From a virus: 34,668 nt of DNA. The first letter of the stretch is position 1. Each line of letters starts with the position of its first letter. Below are positions 128-12,375 of this stretch, piece after piece. The position numbers were made by a program, and so were the translations under genes. The stretch is taken from the IMG/VR virus record IMGVR_UViG_3300021957_000147, positions 1-34,668 of that record. One strand, 5' to 3'. Under the pieces are notes generated by a model that worked only from the letters and a program-made list of their open reading frames with translations, searched no databases and was not told the origin of the DNA.

Positions 128-163
128 GGGTGAGGGTTTTATTTTTCCCCGCCCCAAAATTTT

Positions 164-218
164 CTAGCTGATGAGCACCGGATGGTAACCGGTCGAAACG
201 CCCAGCGGGGCGTCCTAG
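164..218 (+). ncRNA. Hammerhead ribozyme 1 (helix I open)
   Basis: All parts of a hammerhead can be read. Helix I is CTAG 164-167 with CTAG 215-218. The core CTGATGA is 168-174. Helix II is G175 plus 177-181 pairing with 189-194, with C176 bulged and a seven-base loop 182-188. The second core strand GAA is 195-197. Helix III is 198-203 with 208-213 (six pairs, loop AGCG). The cleavage site GTC ends at C214. The expected cut is between 214 and 215, leaving a 2',3'-cyclic phosphate on the upstream RNA and a 5'-hydroxyl on the RNA carrying the gene at 245. A seven-base loop on helix II could make the usual loop contact with helix I. Helix I may extend slightly with 160-163 and 219-222. Confidence 0.9.
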
Positions 219-225
219 ATAACCA

Positions 226-241
226 ATACCTGAGGAGGTAT
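226..241 (+). promoter_or_regulatory. Ribosome-binding-site hairpin before the gene at 245
   Basis: The Shine-Dalgarno sequence GAGGAGG (232-238) lies in a perfect six-pair hairpin: ATACCT 226-231, loop GAGG 232-235, AGGTAT 236-241. Nearly the same leader follows ribozyme 2, and a version with a compensatory base-pair change precedes the gene at 1232. The hairpin hides part of the site and exposes GAGG in the loop. Confidence 0.6.
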
Positions 242-244
242 CAC

Positions 245-523
245 ATGTCATTCGCACCTTGGGATGCTTTGTCCCGACTACTTGGAAGCTTTGAACTCAG
301 CAACGGCAATGCCTTTGAGTATGAGCCAAACGACCCCACCGACAGCTGGCTACCCGTAGTTAATTATCCCCATCGAGTCTGGGTTGCATCCTGCCCAATC
401 AACGAATCTGGGTGGCGATATGCCCACGTCAAAAAGACTGTCGCCCACATCGTTATCGATGAGGATGATTACGGACAGCCGGTAATAGAGAAGTGGTCAA
501 TCAAAAAGCACCGCACATTCTAG
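245..523 (+). CDS. Small phage protein of unknown function, 92 aa
   Basis: The ATG at 245 is chosen because GAGGAGG (232-238) precedes it at normal distance; an in-frame ATG at 182 lies inside ribozyme 1 and would be cut off the message. The product is soluble, with no signal peptide or membrane segment, rich in Trp and acidic residues, and ends in a basic stretch (KKHRTF). I do not recognise a family. It is the first gene behind a hammerhead ribozyme, and its stop codon TAG (521-523) forms part of helix I of ribozyme 2, so its translation and the next cleavage are physically linked. It is probably an accessory protein, like its neighbours. Confidence 0.7.
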   Translation: MSFAPWDALSRLLGSFELSNGNAFEYEPNDPTDSWLPVVNYPHRVWVASCPINESGWRYAHVKKTVAHIVIDEDDYGQPVIEKWSIKKHRTF

Positions 524-572
524 CTGATGAGACTTGAGTGGTACTCAGTCGAAACGCCGTGAGGCGTCCTAG
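520..572 (+). ncRNA. Hammerhead ribozyme 2 (helix I open)
   Basis: Helix I is CTAG 520-523 with CTAG 569-572; the core is CTGATGA 524-530. Helix II is 531-534 with 547-550 and 536-539 with 543-546, with T535 bulged and a three-base loop 540-542. The GAA core is 551-553. Helix III is 554-558 with 563-567, closed by a GTGA tetraloop of the GNRA class. The GTC cleavage triplet ends at C568. The stop codon of the upstream gene (521-523) is inside helix I. The leader after the cut is almost identical to that of ribozyme 1 for about 25 bases, which indicates duplication of a ribozyme-plus-RBS unit, whereas helices II and III differ in sequence but keep pairing. Confidence 0.92.
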
Positions 573-580
573 ATAACCGA

Positions 581-594
581 TACCTGAGGAGGTA
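581..594 (+). promoter_or_regulatory. Ribosome-binding-site hairpin before the gene at 598
   Basis: TACCT 581-585 pairs with AGGTA 590-594 around a GAGG loop (586-589). The Shine-Dalgarno GAGGAGG (586-592) is split between the loop and the 3' arm, as in the leader at 226-241. Confidence 0.55.
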
Positions 595-1156: not shown

Positions 1157-1231
1157 GGTCTTAGCCAGTCGGGCATCTGCGGGTGCCCTTCTGAGTGGGA
1201 CTTCCACTGCAACTGCCTGAGGAGGCAAACC
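1157..1231 (+). other. Structured spacer with hairpins, no ribozyme core
   Basis: This gap holds a strong hairpin GGGCA...TGCCC (about 1173-1190), a second stem-loop GTGG...CCAC (about 1197-1208), and a third formed by TGCCT 1214-1218 and AGGCA 1223-1227 around the same GAGG loop seen at 232 and 586. The last contains the Shine-Dalgarno of the gene at 1232. No CTGANGA/GAAA hammerhead core is present, although position and size match the ribozyme spacers. It may be a degenerate or different processing element. Confidence 0.5.
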
Positions 1232-10324: not shown

Positions 10325-11349
10325 GCTTAGCTGTCCAAGGTTCACCTGAATGGCACGCAGCTCGTGCCGGAAAAATCAAAGCTTCTGTTTGCGCCGCACT
10401 TGAGGGCAAGCACCCGTACATGAAGCCTGCTGACTTGGTTCGCCAAGAGGTAAGGGCATTGGCGGGCGCAGAGTCCGAGTTCAAGATGGTCCCAGCTGTA
10501 GCCCACGGACAAATGATGGAGGATCACGCGCGCATCTTTCTTGAGGGATTGCAGGGCTACACTGTCGAAGAGACCGGTCTAGTCGTACACCCTAAGTATG
10601 ACTTCATCGCCGCTTCACCTGACGGACTAGTCGGTCTCGATGGTTGCGTTGAGATCAAGTGTCCCTTTCCGCAATACACAAAGACTCCTTACTCGATCTT
10701 CGATAAGAAGCGCAGCATGTACTTGATGCAGGTGTATATGCAGATGGAAGTTCTGGACGCCGAGTGGTGTGACTTCATATGTTACCTAGCGCAGAACGAA
10801 ACGGCTGAGCCTCAATATAAGCTGGAGCGCGTTCACCGCAAGGAAGACTTCCTCACTGAACTGCTAAGCCGTAAGTACCTGCCTCAGCCGCAGAAAGGAA
10901 CCATATCGCGCCTCGATCTATATCGTTGCTGGTACAACTGGATTCAAGAGCAGCATCGTGACGAAGTTTCTCGCTCTGATTACGTCAAAAATATTGAAGC
11001 TGACGCGCCAGAGATCATCAAGACTGATGAGGAATTAAACCGCCTGACTGCAATGCAGAACAGAATCGCGGACATCACGTCACGAATCAGTGACGACCTT
11101 CAAACCTTGGACGTTCTGGGCAAGACCAGTGAGTCCCTGAAAAAAGATATCGCCGAGAGATACAAAGGTTCTGTCAGCAACGGCAAGACCACCGTCAAGG
11201 TGATTATGAAGAACCCACCCATCGATTACCGAAAGGCTTTTGAGTTCTTGGGTGGCGAGGATGAAGTTCTAAACAAAGATGAGTCCTTAGATTCTTTTCG
11301 GAGATCAACGGGCGCGATGCAAGTTCAAATTCAACACGGAGATGTGTGA
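10321..11349 (+). CDS. YqaJ/lambda-Exo-type exonuclease, 342 aa
   Basis: The ATG at 10321 overlaps the annealase stop and has GGAGG in the end of that gene. The N-terminal 200 residues have the YqaJ viral recombinase fold: GSPEWHAARAGKIKAS at the start, AHGQMMEDHAR, then ASPDGLVG with Asp101 and VEIKCPF with Glu111 and Lys113, the PD-(D/E)XK metal site. This class degrades one strand 5' to 3' to expose ssDNA for annealing. The C-terminal 130 residues are helical and coiled, as in larger phage members. The pairing with a DUF1071 annealase supports the role. Confidence 0.9.
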   Translation: MSLAVQGSPEWHAARAGKIKASVCAALEGKHPYMKPADLVRQEVRALAGAESEFKMVPAVAHGQMMEDHARIFLEGLQGYTVEETGLVVHPKYDFIAASPDGLVGLDGCVEIKCPFPQYTKTPYSIFDKKRSMYLMQVYMQMEVLDAEWCDFICYLAQNETAEPQYKLERVHRKEDFLTELLSRKYLPQPQKGTISRLDLYRCWYNWIQEQHRDEVSRSDYVKNIEADAPEIIKTDEELNRLTAMQNRIADITSRISDDLQTLDVLGKTSESLKKDIAERYKGSVSNGKTTVKVIMKNPPIDYRKAFEFLGGEDEVLNKDESLDSFRRSTGAMQVQIQHGDV

Positions 11350-11350
11350 G

Positions 11351-11731
11351 ATGCAAAACAGACCAACAGCGTTTGAAAGTTTAAAGGCAGGCAAGGGGCG
11401 GCTATATCCCATGCCTAAAGAGAAGCGCATTGAAGAGTGGAATCGCCTCAAGCAATACGATTGGGCTACCAAAGCAAACGTACCCAAGTACGACGGGTTT
11501 TTAAAAATCACTCGTGAGTTCATTGACCAGTTGGAAGCGGGTCTTGCAGCGCACAACGGAGCTGACTACCGCTGTAACCTCAAGGTCTGCGAGGAGAAGG
11601 GTGATGATGGCAATCTCAAGCAGTTTAACTTGGACTACTGGATCCCAAAGCCGAATCTTAATTTGCAAACTGCACCCGAACCTGCACCTGTACCCGTCGA
11701 TGATTTTGACGACGACGACATCCCATTTTAA
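11351..11731 (+). CDS. SSB-like single-stranded DNA-binding protein, 126 aa
   Basis: The ATG at 11351 is preferred to the one at 11342, since GGAG (11338-11341) gives normal spacing only for the former. The protein has a basic N-terminal domain and ends in VDDFDDDDIPF, an acidic tail with hydrophobic Pro-Phe end typical of SSB proteins, which recruits partner enzymes. A classical OB fold is not clear by eye, so this may be a divergent phage SSB. Position just after the annealase and exonuclease fits recombination. Confidence 0.65.
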   Translation: MQNRPTAFESLKAGKGRLYPMPKEKRIEEWNRLKQYDWATKANVPKYDGFLKITREFIDQLEAGLAAHNGADYRCNLKVCEEKGDDGNLKQFNLDYWIPKPNLNLQTAPEPAPVPVDDFDDDDIPF

Positions 11732-11740
11732 GGAGTCACA

Positions 11741-12139
11741 ATGCCATTAAGAATTGCCCGTGCAGCTGGCTCCGTGTTTTACGGCGGAGAAAGTTTAGAC
11801 AGAGACAATCTCGAGGGCACTTGTGAGCATCGCGTTTGGGTGCGCGGTGTCGTTGACTTGGAAGGCAGACACGAAGTTCACCTAAACGTCCATACCAGAC
11901 GTAAGGGTCACGAAGATCACGTCTTGGCTGGAGGGGAGACTCTCCGGCTCAATGACAAGGTTTTTGTTGAGATGACTGGCATTCATCCTTATTTCGTAAA
12001 GCCTCACATGCCATGTCCAGAGTGCGGTCGATCTGGAGGAACATCAGAAACAAGTTTTATGCTCCCTCAAGCAAGACTAATTGTGGGCGCCCCAAGAAGC
12101 TATCAAATAGTGCGTGATGACGCGAGGAAGAAAACATGA
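11741..12139 (+). CDS. Zinc protein with a split CsrA-like domain, 132 aa
   Basis: The ATG at 11741 follows AAGGAG. Residues 63-81 (AGGETLRLNDKVFVEMTGI) and 110-130 (QARLIVGAPRSYQIVRDDA) line up with the two halves of CsrA: the VGETL.I.D.V.V.V.G strand pair and the Q.R.G..AP....V.REE strand and helix, including the arginine that contacts RNA in CsrA. Between them, where CsrA has a short turn, are about 28 residues with a CPEC knuckle (Cys92, Cys95); Cys28 and His30 could complete a zinc site. CsrA binds GGA in mRNA leaders. The N-terminal 60 residues are extra. The relationship is by eye and needs a profile or structure test. Confidence 0.5.
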   Translation: MPLRIARAAGSVFYGGESLDRDNLEGTCEHRVWVRGVVDLEGRHEVHLNVHTRRKGHEDHVLAGGETLRLNDKVFVEMTGIHPYFVKPHMPCPECGRSGGTSETSFMLPQARLIVGAPRSYQIVRDDARKKT

Positions 12140-12375
12140 GTGAACAGCCACAAGTAGTATCAATTGATAACACCCCTTACCTAGTCTCAGATCTTAGTGA
12201 CTCGTGTAAGGAGCTTCTCAACGCAGCTCAGCAAGCCAATCAAGCTATTAGCCTGTTTGGTACGCTGATTCAGGCAGCGCAGAAAGGTGCTGACCTAAAC
12301 TTCAAAGAGGCTGTGAAGCTTTTGCCTGAGCCTTATCAGCCAGAAGATGCCGAAAAGACTAGCGAAACTCACTAA
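12136..12375 (+). CDS. Small phage protein, DUF6447-like, 79 aa
   Basis: The ATG at 12136 overlaps the previous stop (ATGA). The opening VVSIDNTPYLVSDLSDSCKELL resembles a family of small phage proteins with an I.G..Y...DLS...K.LL motif (DUF6447-like), followed by an amphipathic helix and a Pro-rich acidic tail. Function unknown. It closes the recombination operon before a hairpin-rich spacer. Confidence 0.55.
   Translation: MSEQPQVVSIDNTPYLVSDLSDSCKELLNAAQQANQAISLFGTLIQAAQKGADLNFKEAVKLLPEPYQPEDAEKTSETH

Follow-up and report, generated by a model that had tools for sequence, protein, structure and literature searches.

A phage family of CsrA-like proteins with a CxxC loop, and GGA hairpins at early-gene start sites of the same genomes as candidate targets

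The window (the whole stretch of viral DNA that was analysed, 34,668 nucleotides) contains at 11741..12139 on the + strand a gene for a CsrA-like protein of 132 residues, P0001, which was defined by ORF calling and homologue searches and begins with the ATG at 11741. The reading frame proposed in an earlier note on this DNA thus proved to be a gene conserved in viral contigs. Sequence comparison identifies P0001 as a phage-specific homologue of CsrA/RsmA that has diverged strongly and whose C-terminal half (about residues 57–130) keeps the order of the CsrA strands. On balance, it appears to be a divergent CsrA-type protein of the phage that regulates the translation of early genes. Hairpins at the starts of early genes show a CsrA-type GGA, so this CsrA-like protein may be the means by which the phage controls its own early genes.

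About 50 unique homologues (51 alignment rows) were found in viral contigs, with chain lengths of 129–134 residues; the carriers are uncultured marine phages. Close homologues are 64–75% identical, those found via the neighboring YqaJ gene and alignments are 34–51% identical to their respective queries, and the most distant protein, from G028, is 35% identical to P0001. One candidate, L042, was rejected because its CxxC match was by chance. No homologue was detected in isolate phages by tblastn with the P0001, L191 and L421 proteins. Among MAG contigs a single carrier was found (L284, DNBN01000194.1), which is called Porticoccaceae and which an earlier contig scan had not returned; this may be taken as a hint of the host group. 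The Sak-YqaJ-SSB-CsrA-like operon described below is also present on this contig.

The sequence relation to CsrA is weak for P0001 alone, and it is the wider family that makes it solid. P0001 itself matched Pfam CsrA (PF02599) with 12.9 bits (E=0.11, residues 110–130), which is below the 27-bit gathering cut-off, and searches of PHROGs, NCBIfam and PDB sequences with P0001 or A1 alone gave nothing significant. The earlier note had matched residues 63–81 and 110–130, in this order, to the first and the second half of CsrA, and an independently built CsrA profile regained this arrangement, with CsrA 9–29 on residues 65–85 and CsrA 29–46 on residues 110–127. The CsrA reference included six sequences, and a larger reference set of 60 was taken from viral contigs. 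The profile score of P0001 was equalled by 1 of 20,000 shuffles of P0001, a figure that is insufficient by itself because CsrA was chosen among many families; close homologues such as L010 scored at background against our own CsrA profile. When 43 family members were scanned with Pfam, CsrA was the dominant family (18/43), followed by a family with 3/43. No member reached the gathering score; the best one, L192, had 24.9 bits (E=2.1e-5) over two collinear stretches. NCBIfam CsrA models matched L192, L191 and L182 (best E=0.001).

It could be argued that the likeness reflects convergent short beta-strand motifs in an unrelated all-beta fold, since no member passes the Pfam cut-off and a fold search returned other proteins. 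The profile comparisons make this very unlikely. The hhalign signal against CsrA rose with the diversity of the family (P=0.035, then 0.0029, then 1.5e-5), and the profile search suggested in the earlier note favored CsrA most clearly for the C-terminal half, which matched CsrA strands 2–5 with P=3.4–5.5e-6 (Prob 86–88%). The alignment (P about 4e-6) is collinear over 39 columns, covering CsrA 4–27 and then 29–49, and none of 300 column shuffles was as good (maximum 18.2, compared with 31.0 for the real alignment). In addition, any family other than CsrA matched at most 3 of the 43 members. We refer to the protein as CsrA-like and homologous to CsrA, and not as a member of PF02599, because its scores lie under the family threshold and its size differs.

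An AF2 model of L192 from 43 rows reached pLDDT 86.9 and has nine strands; a model from 18 close homologues had pLDDT 45. The strands of the L192 model at 55–62, 68–70, 74–86, 104–114 and 120–123 are those expected from the profiles for CsrA strands 1–5, and a further N-terminal strand lies at 2–7. Foldseek and VIA searches with this model, in which only single chains were compared, did not list CsrA. The best VIA match was CcsBA (Z 9.1), and the others were loose beta-barrel or sandwich matches. The sheet of CsrA is domain-swapped, with the order beta5-2-3-4-1 (PMC3791407), and thus spans two chains, so that the absence of CsrA from the single-chain lists is inconclusive. The CsrA-like sequence claimed in the earlier note is borne out by the family profiles; the modeled strands lie at positions compatible with a CsrA arrangement, which the fold searches did not return. 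In BFVD, five unnamed phage proteins of 96–201 residues (A0A6G5YD98, A0A6J7WXS8, A0A6G8R4L0, A0A7S5VUW4 and A0A7S5T677) matched the AF2 model with Foldseek probability 1.0. Three of them have only 96–113 residues and so may be relatives that lack the CxxC loop.

Profile alignments equate residues 65–81 (11933..11983, + strand) with CsrA positions 9–25, which form strands 2 and 3, and residues 110–129 (12068..12127, + strand) with CsrA positions 29–48, which form strands 4 and 5 and here include A117-P118 and R125, the equivalent of CsrA Arg44. The residues invariant in the 51 sequences include L3, R4, R7, G15, G16, H30, R35, C92, C95, P118, Y121 and R125 (P0001 numbering), with P118 aligned to CsrA Pro37. 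The AP motif (117–118) and Arg125 before Asp126-Asp127, both pointed out in the earlier note, are present and conserved. Its GETL motif did not hold as a conserved feature, being peculiar to P0001; the homologues read GDEGLQL, GEEGIWL and others. In RsmN, Arg62, which is equivalent to Arg44, is required for function in vivo (PMC3791407).

Between strands 3 and 4, every profile alignment leaves a gap at residues 82–109 (11984..12067, + strand), which contain C92 and C95 (CPECG). That a CPEC loop splits the CsrA-like sequence was thus correctly recognized in the earlier note. The insert has about 25 residues across the family, and CxxC is invariant in the 51 sequences. The term zinc knuckle, however, is too strong, because the loop has only two conserved Cys, that is, half a zinc site; its conserved metal ligands are C92 and C95, compared with four in a zinc knuckle or zinc ribbon. 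Zn_ribbon_3 matched 2 of 43 members, weakly. It is possible that the loop would bind metal only through a second subunit or other ligands.

The N-terminal half (~56 residues) gave no significant hhalign match to CsrA (P=0.11), and hhalign detected no internal repeat between the N-terminal and C-terminal halves (P=0.49). Its first strand, L3-R4-I5-A6-R7 (11747..11761, + strand; L-R-[IL]-T-R at residues 3–7 in the family), resembles CsrA strand 1 (L-x-L-T-R; ML[IV]L[ST]R in CsrA). Scored against N-termini, this motif had a family mean of 4.0 versus -12.8 +/- 7.2 for 5,468 N-termini, with an empirical p of about 0.001 for the best members and 0.009 for P0001. The L272 protein has a GTG start and the N-terminal reading MLRITRAADTVLYGG. 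We infer that the N-terminal half might replace part of the second CsrA subunit.

The placement of the gene in a recombination operon, also noted earlier, was confirmed. In the loci that were examined in detail, a Sak SSAP is followed in turn by a YqaJ/RecE-like exonuclease, an SSB-like gene, the P0001 gene and usually a 79-aa gene, with an integrase further on. The SSB-like gene (129 aa; 11342..11731, + strand) adjoins the P0001 gene upstream and ends in an acidic DDDDIPF tail; its product had no Pfam or PHROG match, the label refers solely to this DDDIPF-like tail, and the protein is probably a ssDNA-binding protein. On the other side, the 79-aa gene (12136..12375, + strand), a conserved partner, overlaps the end of the P0001 gene by 4 bases (ATGA), in the window as in most homologous loci. 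The 79-aa protein has a weak phrog_21153/DUF6447 match. The slot between the SSB-like and 79-aa genes is kept in nearly all loci examined, which would suit a CsrA-derived fold reused as a ssDNA or recombination accessory together with Sak, YqaJ and the SSB-like protein, the hairpins being read by something else; in a study cited in PMC4005645, CsrA is reported to bind a DNA GGA hairpin. We consider such an accessory role unlikely: the Arg44 and AP positions are conserved, the family matches no known recombination family, and the same phages have CsrA-type GGA hairpins on early mRNAs.

These hairpins are the candidate targets of P0001 as a regulator of early genes. CsrA binds A(N)GGA, prefers loops and represses by covering the Shine-Dalgarno (SD) sequence (PMC4005645). 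The earlier note had seen GGA hairpins at the early ribosome sites, and its positions 226, 581 and 1214 are the exact 5' sides of three xxCC-TGAGGA-GGxx SD hairpins, identified in the leader sequences of the + strand: ATACC-TGAGGA-GGTAT (226..241, ATG at 245, also backed by covariation), TACC-TGAGGA-GGTA (581..594, ATG at 598) and TGCC-TGAGGA-GGCA (1214..1227, ATG at 1232), the last with a compensatory G-C for A-U. The element occurs far beyond the window. NNCC-UGAGGA-GGNN overlaps early-gene SD sites in related phages, and the 10-mer CCTGAGGAGG reaches up to 11 copies per record in a set of 20 related records, where it keeps to one strand of each record and the reversed pattern is absent; one further record has 13 hairpin copies, the highest count. 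Carriers include the window, L376, L379, L381 and L424.

Leaders with TGAGGA were picked by loop, ATG and ORF alone, and 77 of 87 unique ones have a stem of at least 3 bp. In 75 CC..GG hairpins the third pair is paired in 99%, compared with 44% after shuffling and 17–48% after sliding, and its types are diverse (GC 28, AT 20, TA 17, and others including CG and wobble); single genomes already contain compensatory stem types. This strong stem covariation indicates a genuine RNA element whose loop is fixed. MFE folds of the short window leaders do not place GGA wholly within the loop, because a closing U-A pair gives a GAGG tetraloop; the stem is settled by covariation and not by MFE folding. Some phages also have GAGGA or GGAGGA loops. 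A cluster of ANGGA of the sponge RNA kind was not found in the window, which has no excess of this motif.

Loop AGGA could also be bound by host CsrA, and part of the SD is covered by the stem alone. Thus, the hairpins might be targets of host CsrA/RsmA, or might simply mask the SD in concert with the ribozymes that lie directly upstream, leaving the phage protein uninvolved. This, too, seems improbable to us, since a fixed UGAGGA loop on a freely covarying stem argues that the loop is recognized and does not merely mask. A divergent clade points in the same direction. Its loops are A/UAAGGA in G025 and AACAGGA in G006, and its proteins (L377/G006 and L422/G025) read R-E-N or R-N-N versus R-[DHN]-[DE] elsewhere, so that the second residue after the key Arg is Asn and not Asp/Glu. 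It is possible that loop and protein co-evolve across clades, as would fit a phage-encoded partner; this is a single correlation in one clade and is suggestive.

The ribozymes are hammerheads with a complete type I core. One (162..220, + strand; 21.2 bits, E=0.045) stops 5 nt short of the first SD hairpin, and the other (518..574, + strand; 27.1 bits, E=5.1e-4) stops 6 nt short of the second; both are below the gathering score of Hammerhead_1 (RF00163), 34 bits. The core pattern CUGAUGA...GAAA...GUC of the window copies also occurs in 10 of the 20 related phage records, with up to four each, and SD hairpins often lie 3' of a hammerhead. Phage hammerheads located between genes have been described, and transcript processing was proposed as their role (PMC3088659). 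The window copies share with the type I/RAGATH-1 phage hammerheads (RF00163, RF03152; PMC3088659) the complete catalytic core, the occurrence of several copies per phage and the intergenic location, and differ in lying immediately 5' of early-gene SD hairpins and below the Rfam gathering score. In the literature searched, we found no description of a hammerhead placed before an SD hairpin.

A scan for ribozyme plus hairpin that was blind to the protein matched 28 stretches. Of the new records, G025 and G028 are the two that extend into the recombination operon, and both encode the CsrA-like protein. No YqaJ or CsrA-like gene was detected in the other new records, and those that were fully read end before the operon or carry only other parts of the genome. 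Among records covering both regions, no case of hairpins without the CsrA-like protein was detected; this co-occurrence may reflect ancestry alone, because both belong to one phage lineage. If P0001 is an early-gene regulator, the protein, made together with the recombination genes, would bind the AGGA loops of the early-gene hairpins and cover the SD sequence, thereby reducing early-gene translation. Two observations speak against such a regulator, namely that the start site of P0001 itself lacks such a hairpin and that its gene lies among recombination genes. The start sites of the recombination genes are also without the UGAGGA hairpin, and therefore these genes could be expressed during early-gene shut-off.

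Phage T4 encodes RegA, a repressor acting at early-mRNA start sites. The analogy is purely functional, with no sequence relation claimed, and the T4 targets are unlike the covarying hairpin. P0001 resembles CsrA/RsmA/RsmE (PF02599) in the order of the C-terminal strands, the AP motif, the position of Arg44 and the basic tail. Its family differs in having about 130 residues, compared with about 61 in CsrA, which is a homodimer, and in adding the loop and the N-terminal half. The loop best bound by RsmE is the ANGGAX hexaloop, from which the phage loop UGAGGA differs. RsmN/RsmF of Pseudomonas aeruginosa (PMC3791407) is, like P0001, a CsrA homologue with an insert and a retained RNA-binding surface, but there a helix of 16 residues is inserted between strands 2 and 3, whereas in P0001 the CxxC loop separates strands 3 and 4.

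A bolder proposal, which we regard as doubtful when taken as a whole, is that P0001 would be a single-chain pseudo-dimeric CsrA, in which strand 1 of the N-terminal half (LR[IL]TR) and strand 5 with Arg125 of the C-terminal half would form one RNA site per chain, versus two per dimer. The CxxC would join chains or sense metal or redox state, the protein would govern a phage-wide early regulon of UGAGGA SD hairpins freed by the hammerheads, and protein and loop would co-evolve between clades.

Phage-encoded copies of CsrA are known, and their role is unexplained (PMC7366521, PMC9144972). Here, a phage CsrA-type protein and its candidate targets, up to 13 covarying GGA hairpins at early start sites, are found in the same genome, and with such a target list the purpose of a phage CsrA becomes directly testable. 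With its CxxC loop and doubled size, the protein would represent a second rebuild of the CsrA fold after RsmN, and the combination of ribozyme, SD hairpin and regulator would amount to an unusual post-transcriptional switch for early genes.
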